From Leptolyngbya sp. FACHB-8 (lineage in GTDB: Bacteria; Cyanobacteriota; Cyanobacteriia; Elainellales; Elainellaceae): a DNA stretch of 45,280 nt. Of the stretch, positions 11,846-30,300 are shown piece by piece. A program made the position numbers and the translations under genes. The stretch is from positions 1 to 45,280 of the forward strand of contig NZ_JACJOO010000032.1 of the NCBI RefSeq assembly GCF_014695575.1. The letters are read 5' to 3'. Within the stretch, counting starts at the first letter, position 1. Every line of letters begins with the position of its first letter. The notes under the pieces are model-generated. The model was not told where the DNA came from, did not search any database, and saw nothing but the letters and a program-made list of their open reading frames with translations.

Positions 11846-12640
11846 ATGAGCATCACAGATTCGTCTCCCCTAGGGCGCATTTTCCAGGGGGTAGAAGCCT
11901 GGAATGACTGGCGGAAAAATCATTCCGCTCCGCCTGATTTGGAAGATGTGATATTGGTTCAGGCAGATCTCGCCAGAGCCAATCTGCGGGATGTCAACCT
12001 AAGTGGTGCCATACTGACCCAGGCCAACTTGCAGAGAGCAGATTTGTGCAACAGCATTTTGCTGAATGCCAGGTTGGAGCGAGCCCACTTACAGGGCGCT
12101 AACCTCAGCAACGCCTACCTGAGTGAAGCGCGACTGGAAGATGCTGATTTAACCCATGCCAATCTGGTAGGAGCGCTCTTGCTGGAAGCCTGCTGTCGCA
12201 AAACGATGTTAGTAGGAGCGGATTTGCGAGGAGCGATTGCCCACCGCAGCGACTTCATCCAGGCAAATCTTATTGGGGCAGTCCTGCGAGGGACTGACCT
12301 GAGCGAAGCTACGTTGATTGGAGCACTGCTGATTAAAGCGAATCTGTCCGGTGCGTTGCTACAAGGAGCCAATCTGAGTCTGGCGGATTTGAGTCGTGCC
12401 AATCTGGCAGGGGCCAATCTGGCAGGGGCCAACCTGAGCGGCGCAACCTTGAGTGAAGCAAATCTGCAGCATGCCAACCTTACAGGGGCCAACCTTAACG
12501 GTGCGTCGCTGGAAGGGGCAGATCTCGGTAACGCCATTCTGTTGGGTGTCACTCTAGACAACGCTCAACTCACTGAGGCTATTCTTGCTCCCGATCTGGA
12601 TGTACCGGAGCTTCAGCTATCCGATTTTGATTTGGGGTAA
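11846..12640 (+). CDS. Pentapeptide-repeat protein 1
   Basis: A 264-residue protein. After a leader containing GVEAWNDWRKNH (about 15-26) it is almost wholly made of A(D/N)LXX pentapeptides (about 40-255), which fold as a right-handed quadrilateral beta-helix. There is no signal peptide, so it should be cytosolic. The biochemical role of most cyanobacterial members is unknown. It is a paralogue of the next gene: both begin with G-V-x-x-W-N-x-W-R. A few repeats are repeated exactly (LAGANLAGANLSGA), which suggests recent expansion. Confidence 0.95.
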   Translation: MSITDSSPLGRIFQGVEAWNDWRKNHSAPPDLEDVILVQADLARANLRDVNLSGAILTQANLQRADLCNSILLNARLERAHLQGANLSNAYLSEARLEDADLTHANLVGALLLEACCRKTMLVGADLRGAIAHRSDFIQANLIGAVLRGTDLSEATLIGALLIKANLSGALLQGANLSLADLSRANLAGANLAGANLSGATLSEANLQHANLTGANLNGASLEGADLGNAILLGVTLDNAQLTEAILAPDLDVPELQLSDFDLG

Positions 12641-12741
12641 GGGCTTCCTAACCTATGGAGGTTCGGCTCTGATATTCCTCCGGGAATCACCCTTTTTCCT
12701 CAATTTTTTATTCTCCTTTAGCGTGTTTCCCTACCTGAACT

Positions 12742-13653
12742 ATGGCTGATCAAGAAATGCTGGCGCTCCTGCGTAAAGGAGTGGATTCCTGGAATGAATG
12801 GCGACAAACGCACCTGGTGAAGCAGGGTATCAAACCCAACTTCACGGGGGCGAACCTGGAAGGTCAAGATCTGGCGGGGGCGGTGTTCATCAAAGCCAAT
12901 ATGACGGGGGTGAATTTGCGGCGATCGCTACTCACCAAGAGCGATCTAAGCCAGGCTACGCTTATCGAAGCTCAATTGAGCCGCAGCGACCTGCGTTGGA
13001 GCCATTTGGAAGCGGCTGATTTACAGCGGGCCGACCTGCGCAATGCTGACCTCAGCGAAGCTAATCTGACTGATGCCATTCTGATTCGGGCTGTCTTAGG
13101 AAAAGCCCGGCTCAAGCAGTGCAAGTTGTTACGCAGCAACCTGCATCGTGCCGATTTACGTGCAGCTGACCTAGTGCAGGCACGGCTCAACCAGGCTGAT
13201 CTGACTCAGGCTGATCTGCGGAGTGCTGACCTGCGACAGGCTAATTTCGAAGGGGCTATTTTAGAGGGGGCTGACCTTTCTCTGTCAGATCTCGATGGCG
13301 TAAACTTTCAAGGAGCCAACCTTCAGGGGGCAAACCTCTGTGGTGCAAATCTTAACCGCGCTAATTTAGTGAGAGCGAACCTAACAGGAGCTAATCTGGA
13401 AACTGCATTTCTCTCCCAGGCAAATTTGACCCGAGCCCAAGTGAAGGGGACTTGCTTTAAACAGGCTGATCTCTGGGCTGCTATCCTGACCGATACCCGG
13501 CTTGAGGAAGCCGTATTGGAAGATGCTAATTTGGCTGCGGCGATTTTGCCCCAGGGGTACAACTGGTATCCTCGGCCTACAACTGAAGATACGGCTGAGT
13601 GGTTGGATGACACGGAACTGCCAACGGTGGAGTATACCTATCCATCCAGTTGA
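12742..13653 (+). CDS. Pentapeptide-repeat protein 2
   Basis: A 303-residue paralogue of the previous gene, about 100 bp downstream. The leader LLRKGVDSWNEWRQTH (about 8-23) matches that of protein 1. Pentapeptides run from about 33 to 275, with LQGANLCGANLNRANLVRA as the most regular part. A short acidic tail follows (WLDDTELPTVEY). The shared leader is known from other cyanobacterial pentapeptide proteins but has no assigned function. Probably cytosolic. Confidence 0.95.
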   Translation: MADQEMLALLRKGVDSWNEWRQTHLVKQGIKPNFTGANLEGQDLAGAVFIKANMTGVNLRRSLLTKSDLSQATLIEAQLSRSDLRWSHLEAADLQRADLRNADLSEANLTDAILIRAVLGKARLKQCKLLRSNLHRADLRAADLVQARLNQADLTQADLRSADLRQANFEGAILEGADLSLSDLDGVNFQGANLQGANLCGANLNRANLVRANLTGANLETAFLSQANLTRAQVKGTCFKQADLWAAILTDTRLEEAVLEDANLAAAILPQGYNWYPRPTTEDTAEWLDDTELPTVEYTYPSS

Positions 13654-15884: not shown

Positions 15885-16605
15885 GCTGGATACCTCCGAC
15901 TTTATGTCACTGTAATTTTGCTATCGATGAAATTTAATGATCAAGATCCCTATGCAAGCAGTCTAATGCAAAGCCCCTCTATTCATCGCAATTATCAGAA
16001 GTTGCTGACGGGGTTGTCTGAAAAGGTTTGGGCAAGTTTAGGCTTTGCTTGGGGACGCGTCTAACCCTGCTTGGGGGCGCGTCGCCCCCCCAAACCCCCC
16101 AACTGGGGGGACGGGCCTCTCCGTCTCTCAGTCGGGAGGTTTGGAGGGCGACGCGCCTCCAAGCTAGATCTCTGCAACCAATCCAGTATCTCAAAACGCA
16201 CCTGTCAGAGTTTTGTGCCCTCTCTGCCAAGAAAGACGAAAAACAAGGTGTGAGAGTTCACACCTTGCTGAGAGACTTCAATCAGGCTGATGAAACTAGG
16301 TTTGGATTTTGAGCCCATCGACTCAAAATCTCTTGAACAAGGCTTAGGGTGATCTGAAAGATAATTCTTCCGAAGAATACTTTGACCAACTCCACACGCC
16401 CTGTGTGGCCAAAGGCATTGATTCTTGTTAGAGAAGGCTTCGCTACCTATCGGCATCAGCAACCATCTCCCAAAAATTGCCCTTGCCGATTTGGCAAGTC
16501 CAGAGAATGCAAAACTTATGCACTCAATAGACTGCCTTATTGTGGATGGGCATCTTGCCAGACCTGGTAAAGACACCCGGCCCACAATTCTCAAATCTGC
16601 ACTCT
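15885..16605. other. Large intergenic region without a recognisable gene
   Basis: A 721-bp gap. It holds the palindromic element at 16069-16164 and a small hairpin near 16246-16268 (AAGGTGTGA and its partner). The longest open frame (16205-16594, minus) has no recognisable features and poor composition. The part nearest 16605 is the 3' side of the CO2-hydration gene. I see no RNA gene. Confidence 0.5.
16069..16164. repeat. G/C-rich palindromic repeat, family H copy 1
   Basis: Outer arms start GCTTGGGGGCGCGTCG and end CGACGCGCCTCCAAGC, with a central hairpin on GGGACGGGCCTCTCCGTC. Arms are imperfect. A shortened copy lies at 45095-45168. Confidence 0.85.
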
Positions 16606-17964
16606 TTAGCGATAGTCGGCAGATTGAATTTCGCGAATTCGAGACTCGGGGCGAAGGAAGCGGCTGAGTTGCGCTTCGAAGAACTTCCGGTTCGCCATCA
16701 GGTGCTCAGGATTGGGATCATCTAGCGGATAGAGCAGGGCTGTGCGAAGCGCCTGGATAACCGCAGAGGTCACGTTGTACATCGATCGCTGGAAGGTAAC
16801 AGCCAACTGTACTAGCTGGTCATCCTCACCCCGGCAATGCTCCTTGTAGTACTCCACCAGATAAGGAGGAAGGAAGTGGAGCATGTCCTGCATCAGCAAT
16901 GTGGGGGGAATTCCAGCTGTACCAACGGGGAACTTGTCGGCATACAGTACGCCGTAGTGGAAGTCTTTCTGCTCGTCGGGAACCTGCTTCGCCTGAGCGT
17001 TGTAGGACTTGGTGCCCCGGAAAGGAGACGTGCGGTAGAACACGGCTTCCACATAGGGCAGAGCTGCTTCGTAAAGCCAGGTGAAACCCTTCGACTTGGG
17101 AATGATTTCGAAACACTCGCCATCGATGTAAACGTGGTGATAGATGGGGCGACCGGCGATCGCAAAAATCCCATTCACCAAAAAGTTCATCGCATCGGGC
17201 ACGCCCTTAAAGCCACCCTCATCGTAGATGTCCGACATCTCGAAGAACACCGGAGCCATCACTTCCCAGAATAGACCCAGGTTGGCGTAGTAAGACATCT
17301 GCCGTACTTGTTCCATGAACATATCAGGGAACATCTTGTACAGACTCATCATCATGGGGTTCTTCTTGAAGAAGGCGCGGATGGCGCGATCGGCGTTGGC
17401 CTTGTACTCGTCGCTGTCGAGGTACGCGTCAAACTGGCCATAGCCCATATCTCGACCATGCCACAGCATGGAGCGCATGCACTCTTCCGCGAACTCCATG
17501 TTGACGCGATCGTGATACCAGTGGTGCAGCAAACGGGGCACCCCTTTCTTCACCTCACCCTTCTCCATGAACTCCAGCAATTCGGGGTGTGCTTCGCCCG
17601 TGCCCCGCCAGATGCGCAGGTCGGCATTGTCCCCGGAGTAGTGGTTGTTCAGCTTCAGGTAGTCCTTGGGCAGGAAGTACTTGAAGAAGGGCAGGGGGTT
17701 GAGGAAAACACGCTCGGCGATGTAGAGCAGATCGCGCCAGTAGAAGTCCATTGGCACGGCGTAAGCCTTGTAGATGCCAATGATCTGCATCAGGTTTTCC
17801 TGGGTGTCAGGCAACATGGAGCCGCCTGCTTCCATCCGATGGATAATGTCGGCGAACTCGTGGGTGGAAGGGGGAATTTTTTCTGCCGCCATGGAGGGGG
17901 GACGGGAGGGAGCAACGGGAGGAGTTTCGGGGGTGGAAGTCCGGGGTGGGAGGGTGGCAGTCAT
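16606..17964 (-). CDS. cupA: CO2 hydration protein of NDH-1MS (CupA/ChpY type)
   Basis: A 452-residue protein of the ChpXY/Cup family, which converts CO2 to bicarbonate when bound to the NdhD/NdhF end of a specialised NDH-1. Recognised segments are GGSMLPDTQENLMQIIGIYK (about 48-67), LLHHWYHDRVNMEFAEECM with a His/Glu-rich helix (about 145-163), FEMSDIYDEGG and GRPIYHHVYIDGE. Family members need histidines and cysteine for a metal site; several conserved His are present. Length fits the CupA type, as CupB is shorter; this assignment is from memory. The first 30 residues are Pro-rich and variable. A phosphatidyltransferase-like gene separates it from ndhD. No cupS-like gene follows. Confidence 0.85.
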   Translation of the reverse strand: MTATLPPRTSTPETPPVAPSRPPSMAAEKIPPSTHEFADIIHRMEAGGSMLPDTQENLMQIIGIYKAYAVPMDFYWRDLLYIAERVFLNPLPFFKYFLPKDYLKLNNHYSGDNADLRIWRGTGEAHPELLEFMEKGEVKKGVPRLLHHWYHDRVNMEFAEECMRSMLWHGRDMGYGQFDAYLDSDEYKANADRAIRAFFKKNPMMMSLYKMFPDMFMEQVRQMSYYANLGLFWEVMAPVFFEMSDIYDEGGFKGVPDAMNFLVNGIFAIAGRPIYHHVYIDGECFEIIPKSKGFTWLYEAALPYVEAVFYRTSPFRGTKSYNAQAKQVPDEQKDFHYGVLYADKFPVGTAGIPPTLLMQDMLHFLPPYLVEYYKEHCRGEDDQLVQLAVTFQRSMYNVTSAVIQALRTALLYPLDDPNPEHLMANRKFFEAQLSRFLRPESRIREIQSADYR

Positions 17965-18124
17965 TGGCTTTCTCGGTAATGTGAACAGATTTGGGAGATG
18001 TTCAACCGTCAGAGCTTGGCTTTGTTCTTCACTGTAGGTGGGTGGGGGGACACAAGATCCAATTGCGTTCAGGTTTTACCCCTGTATTTTGTCTGGGTTC
18101 CCCCAAGGTTTTGCCTATGGTTGA

Positions 18125-18739
18125 CTATGGTTGGATGGAAGGTTGCTGACGAAGTTTCCAGGCATGGAACAAACTGGGGATGTCGTGTTGCCAGGTAGGC
18201 AGGATGAGGGTCATGGCGATTTCTTCCAGGGTGTGAATGATGCCAAGGGCGATCGCCAACCCCAACGCCCATCCGCCATAACTCGCTCCAAATAACATCA
18301 GCGTCGCAACCAGTAAACTCAAACCCCAGGCTTTTGCCGTGTAAGTGTGGTAACAGGCGGGCTGGCCATACTTGACCAGATTAATCACCCACCAGAGCGC
18401 TTGCAGTCCTAACACCGTGAGCAAGGGAACCTGAAAGGCCAGGATGATGTCTCGGTGGGTAAGCCAGGCGGCGATCGCAATGCAGACATATAGAAGGCGA
18501 TCGGCCCAACTATCGGCCTGTCTTAATCCAGCAGTGCTGACTCCCAACCGACGGGCGATGACGCCATCAAAAATATCGGAGAGAACCGCTACCACGTAGG
18601 CCACCAGGAACCCGGTGCCCACCTGTCCGTCCAGGGAATCCCAGAGGAGGAAGGGGGCGATCGCAATACGCAGGGCAACCAGCAACATCGGAATGGAAGA
18701 GACCATAGGAATCGATTCGAGAAAGACTAGCTCTGTCAT
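18125..18739 (-). CDS. CDP-alcohol phosphatidyltransferase-like membrane protein
   Basis: A 204-residue integral membrane protein with about five to six helices. Members join a CDP-linked lipid to an alcohol, making phospholipid head groups. The motif is nearly complete at about 58-80: DG..AR, then eight residues, a Leu where Gly is usual (with Gly one place earlier), then D...D (ADSWAD). The aspartates needed for metal binding are in register. The acceptor alcohol cannot be read from sequence. It lies between ndhD and cupA, all on the minus strand, with gaps of about 145 and 160 bp. The usual ndhF3-ndhD3-cupA order has no such gene. Confidence 0.82.
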   Translation of the reverse strand: MTELVFLESIPMVSSIPMLLVALRIAIAPFLLWDSLDGQVGTGFLVAYVVAVLSDIFDGVIARRLGVSTAGLRQADSWADRLLYVCIAIAAWLTHRDIILAFQVPLLTVLGLQALWWVINLVKYGQPACYHTYTAKAWGLSLLVATLMLFGASYGGWALGLAIALGIIHTLEEIAMTLILPTWQHDIPSLFHAWKLRQQPSIQP

Positions 18740-18883
18740 AACCGATACCCGTGTAGGATTTCGCTTGCCATTGCCGCTTTTGCAATTGCCTGGGGTTGAG
18801 TTGAGAAGGTTCAGGAAGAATTTGCTGCTTGTTGGAATTTTAGAAGCCCAGGTTCCTGGGAAACTTCAACATCCGATTGGTAC

Positions 18884-20392
18884 TTAGTTCGGGGCAACCT
18901 CAGGATTGATAGCGATTTGTTGCAGTTCAACAGTGGGTACTGCCGCAACCATCGCTGTGCTCGTAGGCTCCAGCCAGCGCACTAACCAGGTGGGTTGAAT
19001 GCCCAGGAAGAGGATCAGAATGGTCAGTACGAGAGCTGGCACTTTCTCGGCAGTCGTCACTTTGGGATAGTAAGCCGTTTTGTTATCCAGCTTACCGAAG
19101 CAGGTGCGATTCAGCAGAATCACAAAGTACACCGCTGTCAGACCGGTACCAGCCACCGCAAATAGGGTTTGGAGGGGGAACCGAGCATAACTGCCCTGGA
19201 AAATCAGGAATTCTGAAATGAAGCCTACCAGACCGGGGATACCAGCGCTGGCCATCGCGCCCACCACCAATAGAGAAGCCGTAGCCGGGAGACCGCGGAT
19301 TGGGTTCATCAGACCATTCAATACATCCAGTTCACGGGTGCCAACTTTGGCTTCAATCACACCGACCAGATTGAACAGTACTGCCAGAATCAAACCGTGG
19401 GCCACCATCTGAGACACTGCACCAACCACGCTGAGGGCGGTTAGAGCTGCGCCACCGAGGAGGATGTAACCCATGTGACCGATGGAGCTGTAAGCCACCA
19501 TGCGCTTGATGTCTTTTTGGGCGATCGCCGCCAACGCACCATACATAATGCTGACCGCAGCCCAGATTGCTAACCAGGGAGACAGTGTATTCCAGGCTTC
19601 AGGGAACAGCCCCAGACCGAAGCGGAAGATACCATAAGCGCCCAGTTTTGCCAGAACCCCGCCCAGCAGAATGGCAACGGGAGCCGAAGCCTCAACATAG
19701 GTATCCGGTAGCCAGGTGTGGAAGGGAACCAGGGGAATCTTGATACCGAAGCCGACGAGCAGCACACTCAGTAGAAGGATCTGCATCCCCAGGGGTAAGG
19801 TTTGACCCAGCAGGGATTCGAAGGCAAAGGAGGTGGAGTGCGTAAACCAGATCAGACCAAGGAAACCGAGCAGAATCAGCGCACCGGAAATTGCTGTGTA
19901 AATCAAGAACTTGGTGGCTGCGTAACTCCGCTTGCTACCGCCCCAGATGGACACCAGCAGGTAGAAGGGAATCAACTCCAGTTCGTAGAACAGGAAGAAC
20001 AGCAGTAAGTTCTGTGCTGCGAAGGCTCCCGCAACGCCGCCCACAATCAGCAGCAGCATGGAGTAGTAAAGGCGGGGTCGCTCGATGTCGGTCTTGGTGC
20101 TTAGAATGGCAATCAGCGTCAGCAGGCTATTCAGCACCAGCATCAGCAGAGACAGTCCATCTACACCCAACTGGTAGTTCAAACCCAGTTGCTCAATCCA
20201 GGGAATGTTTTCTACAAACTGCATTCCGGTGTCGCCCAGATTGAACTGGAACATAACCACCAGGGAAAGAACCAGGGTGAAGGCTGTAACCGCTGCTGCA
20301 CCCCAACGAGCCTGCAGGCCCGACACGTTGCCGGGGGCGAAGGCCACCACTCCGGCACCGATGATGGGAATCCAAATCAACAAACTCAACAT
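18884..20392 (-). CDS. ndhD: NDH-1 subunit NdhD (NdhD3/D4 type)
   Basis: A proton-pumping antiporter-like subunit of NDH-1, 502 residues with about 14 membrane helices. The chain shows the family's conserved lysines and helix-break motifs, e.g. VPFHTWLPDTYVEASAP and AQKDIKRMVAYSSIGHMGY, and FFLFYELELIPFYLL with the conserved Glu. The ATG at 20392 has AGGAAGAG before it; an earlier TTG at 20419 is less likely. It lies 68 bp after ndhF, and the Cup protein is nearby, which places it in the CO2-uptake variants NdhD3 or D4. I favour D3 only because the Cup protein looks CupA-like. Confidence 0.92.
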   Translation of the reverse strand: MLSLLIWIPIIGAGVVAFAPGNVSGLQARWGAAAVTAFTLVLSLVVMFQFNLGDTGMQFVENIPWIEQLGLNYQLGVDGLSLLMLVLNSLLTLIAILSTKTDIERPRLYYSMLLLIVGGVAGAFAAQNLLLFFLFYELELIPFYLLVSIWGGSKRSYAATKFLIYTAISGALILLGFLGLIWFTHSTSFAFESLLGQTLPLGMQILLLSVLLVGFGIKIPLVPFHTWLPDTYVEASAPVAILLGGVLAKLGAYGIFRFGLGLFPEAWNTLSPWLAIWAAVSIMYGALAAIAQKDIKRMVAYSSIGHMGYILLGGAALTALSVVGAVSQMVAHGLILAVLFNLVGVIEAKVGTRELDVLNGLMNPIRGLPATASLLVVGAMASAGIPGLVGFISEFLIFQGSYARFPLQTLFAVAGTGLTAVYFVILLNRTCFGKLDNKTAYYPKVTTAEKVPALVLTILILFLGIQPTWLVRWLEPTSTAMVAAVPTVELQQIAINPEVAPN

Positions 20393-20460
20393 GATCGAAG
20401 TCTCTTCCTGAAAGGGCAAATCGTAACGAAACGCAAGTGCTCAGAGGAATCAGCGGCAGA

Positions 20461-22323
20461 TTAGCTGCCAAATACCAGGGACACGCGGGACAGGAACGAC
20501 CAGCTCATCAGAACACCAATCAGCACCGTACCCAGAGCGATCGTGAGCATATAGAACTGTCCCTTTCCGGTGGTGCTGTACTTCAGGGTTTCGCCACCCA
20601 GAATGGAGGCCAGACCGACCGCATTCACCAGACCATCAACGAAGTAGCGATCGAACCAATCTGTCATGCGGGAGATGATATCGACACTGCCAACCACACT
20701 GGACTTGTAGATGCGGGGGGTGTAGAAGTCGTAGGCAAATAGGTCTTGCAAACCTTTCCAGGGAAGTTGCACGGGCTTGGGAATGAACTTGCCGATGTAG
20801 ACAACAGCACCGAGGCTCAGACCGAAGATGCTCGACCAAGTGAGCATAAGCGCTACATCTTTGTTCAGCACGGCCCAGTCAGGCAGTAGGTGCAGACTTT
20901 GTAGAACCAGGGGCAGGTGCAGTGTGAAGGCAGCACCGAAGACCATGGGGAGGGTGACAGGCCAGAGGTTTTCGGGCGATCGCAAGGTCATCGGCTTAGT
21001 ATCACCAGCGAAAATCAGACCAAATACCCGAACTACTGCGAAGGCCGACAACGCATTGATCAATAGCAGCAGACCCAGAATCACTGGGCTAGTTTGCCAA
21101 ATACCATCCGCCAGATTCAGCATTGACCAGAAACCACCCAGGGGAGGCAGAGCCACCAGACCCAACGCACCCGCAACGAAGGACAAGCCAGTAACAGGGC
21201 GCTTCTTCCACAGGCCACCCAGTTGAGTCAAGTCTTGAGTGATGTTGTTCAGAACGATGGAACCACTGCTCATCACCAGAGCGGTCATGGCCATCGCATG
21301 GGTCAGAACGATTAGCAGAGCTGCATCAACATGGCCAGTACCCACTGCAATGAAGGTTAGACCCATGTAAGCGCTGACGAGATAGGAAATGGCACGCTTA
21401 ATATCAATTTGGGCGATGGAGATGAGGGTGCCGCCGAGAGCGGTGATGGCACCAATGGCGATCGCCGCCGACATCACAAAAGGAGACAGAGCCAACACCG
21501 GTTCCATCTTCACCAGAATCCAGGCACCCGTCGCCACAACTACAGAGTTCCGCAGAATCGTGCTGGGGAAGGGACCTTCCATTGCCTCATCCAACCACAG
21601 GTGCAGCGGGAACTGAGCGCACTTACCCATGGGGCCTGCCAGCAGAGCCAAACCGACCAGCGCCATCAGTTTTGGATCAACCTGCGCGGTTTGTGCCCAC
21701 TCAGCTAACTCAGTAAAATTCCAGGTTCCAGACAGAGGATATAGCGCCAAAACGCCCATTAGCAGGAACAAGTCACCGACTCGCTTGGTCAGGAACGCAT
21801 CCCGCGCCCCTGTCACGACCAGGGATTGGTTCAGCCACAGACCCACTAAGAGATAAGTACCGAGGGTCAAAATTTCGAGGATGACATAGCCGAAGAACAA
21901 CGAGTCGCACAAAACCAGGCCACACATCCCCGCTTCAAAGAGGGCCAGCAGGGCGTAGAATCGAGCCCAACCCCAATCCATCTCCAGGTAACCAATGGCA
22001 TAAATTTGAGCCATCAGGTTTATCCCAGTGATGAGGATCATGGCTCCGACAGTCAGGCTCGAAATCATCACCGGAAGGGTGAGATCGAGCCCAGCTACTT
22101 GCAGCCAGGGAAAGTATTCGTAAATCGCAGGCTGATTCCACACAGCGGGAAAAGCCAGCAGCGCATGCACGAAGGCAAAGAACGTCATGAAGGCGTTGAC
22201 GTAGCCAGCAGGACGGGGACCTGTGCGTCGCGTGACGGAAGGAAACCAGATCACCGACAGCAGCATCCCCACCAATGGATAGATTGGAACCAACCAGGCG
22301 GTTTGTGCGAACAAGGAAGTCAT
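20461..22323 (-). CDS. ndhF: NDH-1 subunit NdhF (NdhF3/F4 type)
   Basis: The distal antiporter-like subunit of NDH-1, 620 residues with about 16 helices and a long lateral helix near the end. Recognised segments: TRRTGPRPAGYVNAFMTF at the start (known from CO2-uptake NdhF proteins), LLAGPMGKCAQFPLHLWLDE with the conserved Lys, AMEGPFPSTILRNSVVVATG, and AQIDIKRAISYLVSAYMG. The ATG at 22323 is preceded by GAGG; a TTG at 22365 would add 14 residues. It is the first gene of the ndhF-ndhD-cupA cluster. In other cyanobacteria, this operon is induced by low CO2 through NdhR/CcmR; a palindromic site upstream could be involved. Confidence 0.95.
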   Translation of the reverse strand: MTSLFAQTAWLVPIYPLVGMLLSVIWFPSVTRRTGPRPAGYVNAFMTFFAFVHALLAFPAVWNQPAIYEYFPWLQVAGLDLTLPVMISSLTVGAMILITGINLMAQIYAIGYLEMDWGWARFYALLALFEAGMCGLVLCDSLFFGYVILEILTLGTYLLVGLWLNQSLVVTGARDAFLTKRVGDLFLLMGVLALYPLSGTWNFTELAEWAQTAQVDPKLMALVGLALLAGPMGKCAQFPLHLWLDEAMEGPFPSTILRNSVVVATGAWILVKMEPVLALSPFVMSAAIAIGAITALGGTLISIAQIDIKRAISYLVSAYMGLTFIAVGTGHVDAALLIVLTHAMAMTALVMSSGSIVLNNITQDLTQLGGLWKKRPVTGLSFVAGALGLVALPPLGGFWSMLNLADGIWQTSPVILGLLLLINALSAFAVVRVFGLIFAGDTKPMTLRSPENLWPVTLPMVFGAAFTLHLPLVLQSLHLLPDWAVLNKDVALMLTWSSIFGLSLGAVVYIGKFIPKPVQLPWKGLQDLFAYDFYTPRIYKSSVVGSVDIISRMTDWFDRYFVDGLVNAVGLASILGGETLKYSTTGKGQFYMLTIALGTVLIGVLMSWSFLSRVSLVFGS

Positions 22324-22433
22324 CAGCCTCAGCCCCAGATTGAAGTTGAACAAACCTGTGACCAATTCCCAAAACGGAAATTGATCGAGAGCAGCGGATA
22401 CGCGAACTCTAGGTAATTAGTGCTTAGACAACC

Positions 22434-22635: not shown

Positions 22636-23130
22636 CTACCCCGACTGCTTTCGCCGTCGTTTTTCTTCTGCTCGTAACATTCTTTCCTTAAGAGTGGCAT
22701 TGCGAGTTGCGATGTCGTCCCGTCCTGCATACCATGGCGGCACATCATCATAATCAGGAACACCATCGTCAATCATATACCGAGAGTTGGGATCCTTCGG
22801 GTATCCAACGGGCACTGCTCCCACACAAATAACCAATAGTTTCGATAGGGAAGCTGCTTTTAACGCGCGTTTTGTAGCAGGAGATACGCGCACAATGTCT
22901 CCTGGCTCTAATGATACCAATTCTCCATTGAGCAACAGAAAACCGTTGCCCTCAATCACAATATAAACCTCTTCCTGCTCTGCGTGAGTATGGGTGAAGG
23001 TATATCCTTCATCGGGTGGCAGGGAAATTAGCCCCAGTGCAACCCCTTGCAAGTTGAGTTGGCGGCGTGGGCTAGTGAGGTAGGGCAGATTCGCGAAGTC
23101 GAAATGAGCTTTGTTGTAGGGAGGAGTCAT
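22636..23130 (-). CDS. Cupin domain protein
   Basis: A 164-residue single-domain cupin with a basic C-terminal tail. Motif 1 is at about 41-62 (HTHAEQEEVYIVIEGNG), giving two His and one Glu for metal. In motif 2 (LEPGDIVRVSPATKRALKA, about 73-91) the usual His is replaced, so metal binding may be incomplete or absent. Substrate unknown. The tail is rich in Arg and Lys (ERMLRAEEKRRRKQSG). It lies between the NDH-1 operon and mutM, without clear linkage to either. Confidence 0.88.
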   Translation of the reverse strand: MTPPYNKAHFDFANLPYLTSPRRQLNLQGVALGLISLPPDEGYTFTHTHAEQEEVYIVIEGNGFLLLNGELVSLEPGDIVRVSPATKRALKAASLSKLLVICVGAVPVGYPKDPNSRYMIDDGVPDYDDVPPWYAGRDDIATRNATLKERMLRAEEKRRRKQSG

Positions 23131-26522: not shown

Positions 26523-26864
26523 ATGATTGAAAACACAACCCGTTTGCAGCTACAGGCCAACATCTCTATACCGCAAGAGTCTCTTACTGCTTTTTGCCAG
26601 AAGTGGAAGATTCAAGAGCTTTCCTTTTTTGGTTCCGTTCTGAGGCAAGATTTTCGTCCCGATAGCGATATTGATGCCTTGGTTAGTTTTGAGGAAGGGG
26701 CACCTTGGGGGCTCCTGGAGCTGGTGCGAATGAAGCGTGAACTTTCCACCTTGCTGGGGCGTGATGTTGACTTACTGACTAAAAAGTCAATTGAGCAAAG
26801 CCATAACTGGATCCGCCGTAAGGAAATTTTAGGAACAGCTCAAGTTATCTATGTCGCGGGATGA
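26523..26864 (+). CDS. MNT nucleotidyltransferase antitoxin
   Basis: A 113-residue minimal nucleotidyltransferase. In characterised pairs such proteins add AMP to a tyrosine of the HEPN toxin and so silence it. The catalytic signature is intact: Gly37-Ser38, then Asp49 and Asp51 (SDIDALV), following GSVLRQDFRPD. The C-terminal KEILGTAQVIYVAG is common in these proteins. The coding sequence overlaps the HEPN gene by 14 nt, so translation is coupled. A second pair of the same type, with a broken toxin, lies at 43349-43973. Confidence 0.93.
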   Translation: MIENTTRLQLQANISIPQESLTAFCQKWKIQELSFFGSVLRQDFRPDSDIDALVSFEEGAPWGLLELVRMKRELSTLLGRDVDLLTKKSIEQSHNWIRRKEILGTAQVIYVAG

Positions 26865-27192
26865 TGCTTCGCTATTGGATATTGTTCGAGCTGGACAGTT
26901 GGTCTTACAGTTTGCCCAAGGGCTTGGTCGCGAACAATTGAACGCTGATTTGCGAACACAATCAGCAATTCTTTATCAAATTGCAATTATGGGAGAAGCG
27001 ACCAAGCGTTTATCTCGAGAGTTGCGCACAAAACATCCAGAAGTGCCCTGGGACGATATTGCTGGGATGAGGGATATTATCACCCATCAATACGATCGCC
27101 TTGATCTGAATATTGTTTGGCAAGTTGTCCAAAAGAACATTCCTGAACTATTGGCCTTAATTTTGCCATTGCTACCAGATGAAAATCTTTAG
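26851..27192 (+). CDS. HEPN (HepT-like) RNase toxin
   Basis: A 113-residue helical HEPN protein. The catalytic R-x4-H-x-Y motif is intact at Arg74, His79 and Tyr81 (MRDIITHQYDRL); Tyr81 is the expected target of the partner's AMP transfer. The HepT layout is complete: IAIMGEATKRLSRELR in the middle and NIVWQVVQKNIPEL at the end. The start overlaps the upstream antitoxin. Compare with the copy at 43653-43973, which has the same motif at the same residue numbers but a stop at codon 60. Confidence 0.93.
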   Translation: MSRDDASLLDIVRAGQLVLQFAQGLGREQLNADLRTQSAILYQIAIMGEATKRLSRELRTKHPEVPWDDIAGMRDIITHQYDRLDLNIVWQVVQKNIPELLALILPLLPDENL

Positions 27193-27323: not shown

Positions 27324-30300
27324 ATGGTCAAACGAATCGTTTTGATAGCCGGGTTTGAATCCTTTAATGCGGATTTGTATCGACAGGCGGCGAAGGTGGC
27401 GCAAGAGCGGTGTCCAGAGTTGGAGATTGCGGTGTTTAGCGATCGCGATCTGGCTGCCAAACCGGAGGCGATCGCCCATGCCCTGTCCGAAGCTGACGTA
27501 TTCTTTGCCAGCCTGCTGTTTGACTACGACCAGGTGATTTGGCTGCGAGAACGGGCACAGCACATCCCCATTCGATTGGTCTTCGAGTCGGCGTTGGAGC
27601 TGATGAGTTTGACTCAGTTGGGGAAGTTTGCGATCGGCGACAAGCCCAAGGGAATGCCCAAGCCCGTGCAATTTATCCTTAGCAAGTTTGGTGGTACCCA
27701 GCGGGAAGAGGACAAGCTGGCGGGCTACATTAGTTTTCTGAAGGTTGGCCCCAAACTGCTCAAGTACATCCCTGTGGGGAAAGTGCAGGATCTTCGCAAC
27801 TGGCTAATCATTTACGGCTATTGGAATGCGGGCGGTTCTGAAAACGTCGCATCCATGTTTGTGTATTTGGGCGAGAAGTATCTGGGTCTGACGGTGGATA
27901 GCATCCCCGATGTAATCGAAACGCCTAACATGGGCTTGTTACATCCTGAGTATGACGGGTATTTTGAGTCGCCCAAAGCGTATTTAGAGTGGTATCAACA
28001 ACGCTTCCCTAATACGAATCCCGTTGTTGGGATGTTGCTGTATCGAAAGCATGTCATTACGAAGCAACCTTATATTCCTCAGCTCATTCGTTACTTTGAG
28101 CAAGCGGGATTAACGCCACTGCCCATTTTCATCAACGGCGTGGAAGGTCATGTGGCGGTGCGCGACTGGATGACCACGGATTATGAGCAGGAGCAGCGAT
28201 CGCAAGGCAACATCGAACTCCCGTCTTTGACAAAAGATGCCGTGAAAGTGGATGCGATCGCCTCCACCATCGGCTTCCCTCTCGTTGGTGGCCCAGCGGG
28301 TTCAATGGAAGCAGGTCGCCAGGTCGAAGTCGCCAAGAAAATTCTGAGTGCCAAAAATGTGCCCTACTTTGTCGCGGCTCCGTTGCTGATTCAGGATATT
28401 CATTCCTGGACACGGCAAGGGATTGGAGGGCTGCAAAGTGTCGTGTTGTATGCACTGCCCGAGTTGGATGGGGCGATCGATCCCGTGCCATTGGGGGGAT
28501 TAGTCGGTGACAAAATCTACCTCATTCCCGAGCGGGTTCAACGCTTGACTCAGCGTATTAATAATTGGATTGCGCTACGCCAGAAACCACCTGCTGGGCG
28601 GAAGGTGGCGATCGTCCTCTACGGTTTCCCGCCAGGCTACGGGGCAACTGGAACAGCCGCCCTGCTGAACGTGCCCAAATCCCTGATCAAGTTACTTCAA
28701 ACGATGAAGGCCCAGGGCTATGACGTGGGCGACATCCCCGAGGATGGCGAAGAACTCATTGAGCAGGTGCGTCAGGCTGATGAATTGTTTGTCGGAGTGA
28801 CTCCTACCGACGTCAGCCTTGAGGAGGCACCGATCGCCACGGTCACCGCTCGCAAACTGGAACATTGGCTCGGTTATTTGCTGACGCGGCGGATTGAGAA
28901 GCAGTGGAAGTCGTTGTCGGACACAGGTATACGGACGGTGGCGATCGCTGAACGCCCCGAAGAATCCCGCTATCTCCTGGGCGGCGTGCAACTTGGCAAT
29001 GTGTGGATCAGTGTGCAGCCGCCTTTGGGGTTGCAAGGCGACCCCATGCGTCTCATGTTTGAGCGAGATTTAACACCCCATCCGCAATACGCCGCCTTCT
29101 ACAAGTGGTTGCAAAATGACTTTCAGGCGGATGCCGTTGTGCATTTTGGCATGCACGGCACCGTGGAATGGCTACCCGGTTCACCGTTGGGGAACACCGG
29201 CTATTCCTGGTCAGACATTCTGCTAGGGAATTTGCCGAACCTCTACATCTATGCGGCGAATAATCCCTCGGAGTCGATTTTGGCCAAGCGGCGGGGCTAT
29301 GGGGTGCTGATTTCCCATAATGTGCCGCCGTATGGTCGGGCGGGGCTTTATAAGGAACTGGTGACGTTGCGGGATTTGATTGCGGAGTATCGCGAAGACC
29401 CGGAAACAAATGCGGCATTGAAGGAGGCGATCGCCAAAAAGATCCTCGACACGGGTTTAGAAGCAGACTGCCCCTTTGAGGAATCCCGTCACCTGGGCAT
29501 TGAATTCACCCCAGAAAACTTGCGAATGTTTAGTGCAGAGGTGTTCAATCGTTATCTGCTGAAGCTCTACGAATATCTACAAGTTCTGGAAAACAGGCTC
29601 TTCTCTTCCGGATTGCATGTGTTGGGAGACGCACCCGATGAAGATCGAATGAGAGATTATCTGGCCGCTTACTTTGGGGAGGAATGGCCACAGGTCGAGG
29701 GGGCGATCGCTACTCCCGAGTCTACTAATGGTCTTGCAGACAAAGTACAACAGGCCGCCCTCATTCGTACTCTGCTGAGCCAGACAACGGATGAACTCAC
29801 GAACCTGCTGCGGGGGCTGAATGGTGAGTACATTCCTCCAGCACCGGGAGGAGATTTACTGCGGGATGGGCCTGGGGTACTGCCGACAGGACGCAATATT
29901 CATGCACTCGACCCTTACCGGATGCCATCGCCTGCCGCCTATGAGCGAGGACGGGAGATTGGCCGAAAGCTCATTGCTCAGCATCTTGAAGAACACGGCA
30001 CTTACCCCGAAACTGTGGCGGTGATGTTGTGGGGCTTAGACACAATCAAAACCAAGGGTGAATCCATTGGGATTCTGCTGGAATTGGTAGGAGCTGAACC
30101 TGTGAAGGAGGGCACAGGCCGGATTGTGCGTTACGAGTTAAAACCCCTGAGCGAGATGGATCATCCCCGTATCGACATCTTGGGTAATCTGTCAGGGATT
30201 TTTCGGGACAGCTTTGTGAATGTGATTGAGCTGTTGGATGACCTGTTCCATCGGGCTGCTGAAGCGGATGAGCCGGAGGAGCAAAATTTTGTCAGAAAGC

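Follow-up and report, generated by a model that had tools for sequence, protein, structure and literature searches.

According to the accessible part of PMC11456788, the NDH-1MS operon of Synechocystis PCC 6803 has the gene order ndhF3-ndhD3-cupA-cupS(-cupAR), and its CupAR (sll1736) is a protein of 127 amino acids with two N-terminal membrane segments and a hydrophilic tail. A putative cupS of Nostoc PCC 7120 is encoded apart from the cluster, as stated in the accessible part of PMC7699953, and in the electron cryomicroscopy structure of NDH-1MS, CupA contacts resolved lipids and NdhF3 (PMC6981117, accessible part). A cluster of this type is present in a stretch of 45,280 nucleotides from the cyanobacterium Leptolyngbya sp. 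FACHB-8 (assembly GCF_014695575.1, contig NZ_JACJOO010000032.1, positions 1 to 45,280), which was analysed as a whole and is referred to as the window. Its ndhF3, ndhD3 and cupA genes follow each other in the same order as in the Synechocystis PCC 6803 operon. In contrast with the latter, the window contains a gene coding for a CDP-alcohol phosphatidyltransferase-like membrane protein (further referred to as the lipid gene) between ndhD3 and cupA, and cupS is located elsewhere in the genome. An earlier interpretation of the window (the sequence-only reading) had already placed a lipid-synthesis-like gene between ndhD and cupA, which was confirmed by a match with PF01066 and by the four-gene order ndhF3, ndhD3, lipid gene and cupA on the minus strand. 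Comparison of the cluster order in related genomes, as this reading had proposed, revealed that the gene is recurrent in the same slot but optional. A search limited to the open-licence literature, which does not show absence from print, retrieved no report of a lipid gene in an ndhF3-ndhD3-cupA cluster; as far as searched in that literature, the gene is conserved in the cluster and apparently undescribed. One candidate paper (PMC5987646) was set aside, as its accessible part concerns a phosphonate cluster.

The position of the lipid gene was compared among the best 80 of 116 confirmed loci, the window being the 80th and L084, which has no clean open reading frame (ORF), being left unclassed. 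In 44 of these loci, the gene was preceded by ndhD3 and followed by cupA, in the same slot and orientation, and in the other 36 neither ndhD3 nor cupA occurred within 2.5 kb of it. Nostoc strains are among those carrying the gene in the cluster. Genes outside the cluster were common only to close relatives, indicating that the cluster itself is what is kept, and not a long syntenic block. Furthermore, the pairwise distances of the lipid gene among linked loci correlated with those of NdhF3 (r 0.85), NdhD3 (r 0.80) and CupA (r 0.74), and none of 999 permutations gave values as high. Together with the low ratios of nonsynonymous to synonymous substitution rates (dN/dS) given below, this conserved position and orientation and this congruent divergence argue against a chance insertion in this genome, which the sequence-only reading had considered. 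The Chloroflexales metagenome-assembled genome harbouring L084 contains a relative of 47% identity, reflecting either transfer or mis-binning. A beta-carbonic anhydrase gene was present between ndhF3 and ndhD3 in 23 of the 44 linked loci and in L139 (24 loci), as exemplified by L018:4286-5038 (PF00484, 133 bits). Read by eye, the start of this carbonic anhydrase is twin-arginine-like, and the enzyme may be a relative of EcaB, a protein mentioned in the accessible part of PMC11456788.

The product of the lipid gene is well supported as an integral-membrane enzyme of a divergent, mostly cyanobacterial branch of the CDP-alcohol phosphatidyltransferases. It scored 54.3 bits with PF01066, the profile of this superfamily (cut-off of 22). 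An AlphaFold2 model made from 29 sequences (predicted local distance difference test score of 93.1 and predicted template modelling score of 0.83) displayed nine predicted helices, and VIA-align returned PgsA (7drj/7drk) as the nearest solved folds, with a Z score of 13.7 and a root-mean-square deviation of 3.1-3.4 over 160-162 residues. Rows 1 to 19 of this comparison were all CDP-alcohol phosphotransferases (Z of 7.8-13.7), so that the fold is that of the superfamily; a Z of 13.7 is near a level possibly common among helical bundles, yet the highest ranks are all taken by the family, in line with Pfam. The catalytic motif was examined in 105 distinct sequences, 15 of 120 rows being dropped as identical. 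Its D, D, G, D and D residues were invariant throughout the 105 rows, whether from linked or from free copies, and its A and R residues in all but one, a linked row (104 of 105). All of D-D-G-A-R-D-D is present in the window copy, the ORF of which is intact. These residues and a second Gly presumably make up the eight-residue consensus of the family, and it is because of a Leu in place of this second Gly that the branch is called divergent. Other residues, namely Lys123, His131, Lys136, Glu173, Trp183 and Asp186, were invariant or nearly so, which suggests that the enzyme may have an acceptor site of its own.

Known enzymes of the superfamily were considered as identities for this protein. PgsA (TIGR00560), the best solved fold match, shares its catalytic Asp pattern, but the window protein has Leu for the second Gly, whereas the PgsA of the same genome has Gly at the site equivalent to Leu72. 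With 16.2 bits on TIGR00560 (cut-off of 109.1), the window protein is far below the threshold, by which PgsA was rejected as its identity. The true PgsA is encoded on contig C89 (TIGR00560, 168 bits), indicating that the lipid gene codes for an extra enzyme; an alignment profile of the latter aligned with this PgsA over 68 columns only, at 66% probability. The best NCBIfam match was ClsA (NF053678), and all 29 aligned members gave matches with both ClsA and PssA at E up to 1. Here too the identity was rejected (41 bits versus a cut-off of 240), the likeness to ClsA being one of superfamily kinship, as the PgsA of the genome scores higher on NF053678 (74 versus 41 bits). CupAR was rejected as an identity by size and described topology only, namely 204 amino acids and nine predicted helices versus 127 amino acids and two segments.

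In 20 hand-picked pairs, broken copies included, dN/dS of the lipid gene amounted to 0.05-0.23, indicating purifying selection. In the same pairs, 19 of which had the neighbouring genes, values of 0.03-0.23 and 0.01-0.08 were found for ndhD3 and cupA, respectively. One free pair (L026/L035) gave a dN/dS of 0.054. In a relative of the same genus (L056 = L154 = G159), the gene is in the slot but has undergone an 8-base deletion that removes the catalytic A-R and causes a frameshift. The dN/dS between the window copy and this relative is 0.09 at saturated synonymous divergence, indicating that the break is either late or an error.

A tree of the 105 sequences, in which copies with CupA or NdhD3 within 2.5 kb were labelled as linked (L130 of genome G254 with ndhD3 only, as its contig ends), contained a supported branch of 65 rows (97/88), comprising 48 of the 49 linked rows and 17 free ones. 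The other side of the tree held L139 as its only linked row, next to 39 free ones. The label changed 8 times between linked and free, compared with 35 times in shuffles. A simple history would be that the gene was inserted once, long ago, and was then lost many times and in some cases escaped from the cluster; alternatively, a spread by recombination via the ndhD3 and cupA flanks is possible. Within the family of the window, ndhD3 of the gene-free locus L089 is 82% identical to that of the window, versus 80% for gene-bearing clusters. As ndhD3 of some gene-free clusters is as close as that of gene-bearing ones, the lipid gene apparently is gained or lost independently of the other cluster genes. 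Relatives also occurred on three plasmid records. On the Allocoleopsis plasmid NC_019761.1 (15721-21376; L155), the gene lies approximately 0.6 kb after genes for Mu-transposase, TniB and TniQ, and it may travel there as Tn7-like cargo. Another plasmid relative, of 34% identity, originates from the gammaproteobacterium Thiothrix. A protein of the same family as that of the window is encoded on plasmid pNOS3756_1 of Nostoc NIES-3756 (55% identity to the window copy), outside an NDH cluster and with a TVP38/TMEM64 (VTT-type) gene as its partner instead. The family is thus likely mobile. A phage origin was rejected, as no match was found in the phage collection.

On the side of the tree dominated by free copies, a VTT/TVP38 gene was found within 1 kb in 8 of the 39 free rows. 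VTT/TVP38-TMEM64 genes were located directly beside the free copies of L062, L070, L072, L077, L078, L079, L085 and L127, and on NZ_AP017296.1. Proteins of the VTT/TVP38 type may have a lipid-scrambling role, and a lipid-related two-gene unit is possible. Besides one VTT gene, seven hand-picked neighbours of unlinked copies were compared with Pfam, and no common theme was found among them. In genome G028 (locus L144), which is 8% contaminated, a class I methyltransferase gene (L144:4668-5312) occurs between the lipid gene and cupA; its best NCBIfam match is the phospholipid N-methyltransferase PmtA, a weak one (66 bits versus a cut-off of 390). Both pairings, with this methyltransferase and with VTT genes, point more to lipid chemistry than to a structural subunit, and neither shows a link to CO2 uptake.

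Starting from the cluster order and its conservation, the fold, the intact catalytic residues, the purifying selection and the dispensability of the gene, the reading that is tentatively favoured, while falling somewhat short of being probable, is that of an optional CDP-alcohol phosphatidyltransferase that is co-made with NDH-1MS and tunes the anionic phospholipid at the assembly site of this complex. The gene, fixed between ndhD3 and cupA in some lineages, would probably be part of the same low-CO2 transcript as NDH-1MS. Its product would most likely transfer the phosphatidyl group of CDP-diacylglycerol to a phosphate-bearing acceptor, either glycerol phosphate-like or phosphatidylglycerol-like. 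Anionic phospholipid would thereby be raised or changed locally in the thylakoid, at the site of assembly of NdhF3, NdhD3 and CupA, and the benefit to NDH-1MS would be a conditional optimisation and not that of a required part. A bolder version, which is rather improbable, would be a dedicated phospholipid synthase in the locus of a CO2-hydrating complex I, the lipid filling the interface of CupA and NdhF3 or a gas channel and tuning CO2 capture. Such a lipid would possibly be a non-standard cyanobacterial phospholipid, for instance a cardiolipin-like one. If true, the operon of a respiratory-type complex would encode a lipid-making enzyme dedicated to that complex.

Several observations weigh against a role of the lipid gene in NDH-1MS, in particular its distribution. 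In 388 cyanobacterial genomes drawn from the class, cupA was found in 307 (E up to 1e-150) and the lipid gene family in 40 (E up to 1e-20). In seven of these 40, G028 with its intervening methyltransferase gene included, the gene precedes cupA by at most 1 kb and shares its strand, and in an eighth genome, G254, the order ndhF3-ndhD3-lipid gene runs into a contig end. An in-cluster gene in at least 8 of 307 cupA-bearing genomes is rare, with 8 as a lower bound, as some matches, such as those of G270 and G137, border on the end of a contig. Among 30 cupA loci fetched, 26 had ndhD3 directly before cupA and no lipid gene, and 20 of these 26 gene-free clusters belong to the family of the window itself; 13 of the 26 genomes carry a family copy elsewhere. 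The remaining four loci are those of the window, the same-genus relative, G028 and the split G254, with the gene in place in L087, L088 and L114, and L090 (G254) being cut by the contig end, its gene on another contig. A search at E up to 1 retrieved no gene remnants in the ndhD3-cupA gaps of the 26 clusters; when it was repeated with three positive controls, all were detected, two broken copies included. The association with cupA is weak (cupA in 37 of 40 genomes with the gene versus 270 of 348 without it; Fisher p of 0.025, uncorrected for kinship). In addition, copies remote from the cluster are maintained, as in the single-contig genome G024, indicating that co-expression is not essential. 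The same direction is taken by the dN/dS values, which were higher for the lipid gene than for ndhD3 in 16 of the 19 pairs and thus reflect a weaker constraint, and by the broken copies, 5 in 44 linked loci, L058, L063, L069 and L081 being truncated, stopped or frameshifted besides the same-genus relative; these were read only in the five linked loci with short or missing ORFs, and assembly errors are possible. The enzyme assignment has counterpoints as well. The second Gly of the presumed consensus is replaced by Leu in 104 of 105 rows and by Val in one, the window protein stays below the cut-off of every curated NCBIfam model, and Foldseek alone ranked PgsA first but gave no match at E < 0.001. 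When searched alone against the sequences of solved structures, the lipid gene gave no match at E up to 1. The gene is optional. The suggestion of the sequence-only reading that NDH-1MS needs the lipid is contradicted by the 26 clusters without the gene, against at least 8 of 307 genomes with it, and by the frameshifted same-genus copy; clusters without the gene in relatives, which that reading had named as its refutation, do exist, and an obligatory role in NDH-1MS fails.

The patchy distribution, the relocation and the decay would all be expected of a mobile lipid gene that arrived long ago and is useful in itself, for instance in membrane adaptation, its product being unrelated to CO2 uptake and the slot merely permissive and well expressed. 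The three plasmid records, including the one on which genes for Mu-transposase, TniB and TniQ closely precede the copy, fit this explanation too, as does the purifying selection on free copies (one pair, L026/L035). A neutral slot, however, predicts less than what is seen, as the in-cluster position is kept while the surroundings change between lineages, which leaves this explanation possible, albeit on the doubtful side. That linkage alone keeps a dying gene, on its way out, would account for the frameshift, stop or truncation in five of the 44 linked loci, that of the same-genus relative included and some perhaps assembly errors, and for the constraint being weaker than that on ndhD3 in 16 of 19 pairs; with dN/dS of 0.05-0.23, a (nearly) invariant motif and an intact window copy, it is very unlikely.

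The slot between ndhD3 and cupA and the congruent divergence could also reflect a protein that assists in the assembly of NDH-1S or is an accessory subunit of it, binding NdhD3/NdhF3 in the membrane as is reported for CupAR of Synechocystis, with any catalysis being secondary. CO2-uptake clusters do hold further subunit genes, since CupAR, which is unrelated to the window protein, is reported in the accessible part of PMC11456788 as a membrane subunit and regulator that is co-transcribed with the operon in Synechocystis. Such a role is nevertheless unlikely, as the four motif Asp residues are kept in all 105 rows, linked and free, as for an enzyme, and as the gene also survives outside the cluster and is absent from most cupA-bearing genomes drawn.

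Regarding cupS, its absence from the cluster was claimed by the sequence-only reading, which holds locally, as no cupS adjoins cupA in the window and the Synechocystis order, with cupS directly after cupA, is not found; it does not hold genome-wide, as a CupS ortholog is encoded on contig C59. The genome contains two Fasciclin genes. In the protein encoded on C59, a core of 132 residues matches CupS of 6tjv/2mxa with 176 bits. In the search with the C59 protein, multi-domain TGFBI chains were higher in total score, but the best single TGFBI domain reached 84 versus 176 bits. Moreover, cupA-adjacent genes in other genomes are 73-81% identical to this CupS ortholog. In Thermosynechococcus, the chains are named Tll0220 (CupS) and Tlr0906 (CupA). 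Both the lipid gene and cupS are present in the clusters of L139 and L144, indicating that the former is no replacement for the latter. A missing cupS beside cupA is ordinary.

The positions of the cluster genes and of the features associated with them are given in the table below.

Features of the ndhF3-ndhD3-lipid gene-cupA cluster in the window
Feature	Position	Strand	Remarks
ndhF3, NDH-1MS antiporter-like subunit	20461..22365	(-)	ORF from TTG 22365; ATG 22323 likely start
ndhD3	18884..20419	(-)	ORF from TTG 20419; ATG 20392 likely start
CDP-alcohol phosphatidyltransferase-like membrane protein, 204 amino acids	18125..18739	(-)	PF01066
Catalytic motif D55..D58 G59..A62 R63...D76...D80, Leu72	18500..18577	(-)	Alignment and column counts over 105 rows
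cupA, CO2 hydration protein	16606..17964	(-)	TIGR01964, 766 bits; Tlr0906 of 6tjv (NDH-1MS), 707 bits
Terminator-like hairpin with T-rich tail, just 3' of cupA	16472..16498	(-)	Weak: 4 such sites in the region versus 6.6 expected from shuffles

The presence of ndhF3, ndhD3 and cupA orthologs in this order identifies the locus as that of NDH-1MS, the assignment of ndhF3 and cupA relying on curated profiles and on the solved NDH-1MS complex 6tjv, and that of ndhD3 on NF005611. NdhF3 scored 940 bits with TIGR01960 (cut-off of 588.7) and had 6tjv_F as its top solved match (782 bits). NdhD3 scored 808 bits with NF005611 (cut-off of 764) versus 722 bits with the rival model NF005060, and the other ndhD of the genome displayed the reverse pattern (749 bits with NF005060 and 651 with NF005611). 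A CupB cluster was rejected as an identity for the window, as its profile and structure matches are those of CupA and a CupB-like gene, adjoining an ndhD4-like gene, is present elsewhere in the genome (contig C61). Comparison with relatives indicated that the lipid gene possibly starts at ATG 18706. The stop-to-start gap is 144 bases long between ndhD3 and the lipid gene, and that between the latter and cupA is 160 bases long. No terminator-like site was seen in these gaps, in a scan that overall finds no more sites than shuffles; likewise, the counts of internal promoters and terminators in the cluster region were not above those of shuffles and are silent either way.

Directly upstream of ndhF3 and on the same strand, a cupin-domain gene (PF07883) occurs at window positions 22636-23130. 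Elsewhere in the window, two adjoining pentapeptide-repeat-like genes, recognized by eye (11846-13653, plus strand), perhaps represent a tandem duplication. A small pair of nucleotidyltransferase-like and HEPN-like genes (26523-27192) is presumably of the MntA-HepT type, and the large gene just downstream of it, at 27324, is presumed to be chlH.

The simple picture of a locus that is always ndhF3-ndhD3-cupA-cupS is corrected by these results. Strains in which the lipid gene is present, absent, broken or relocated constitute a natural set, by which the role of the lipids contacting CupA in CO2 capture is testable.

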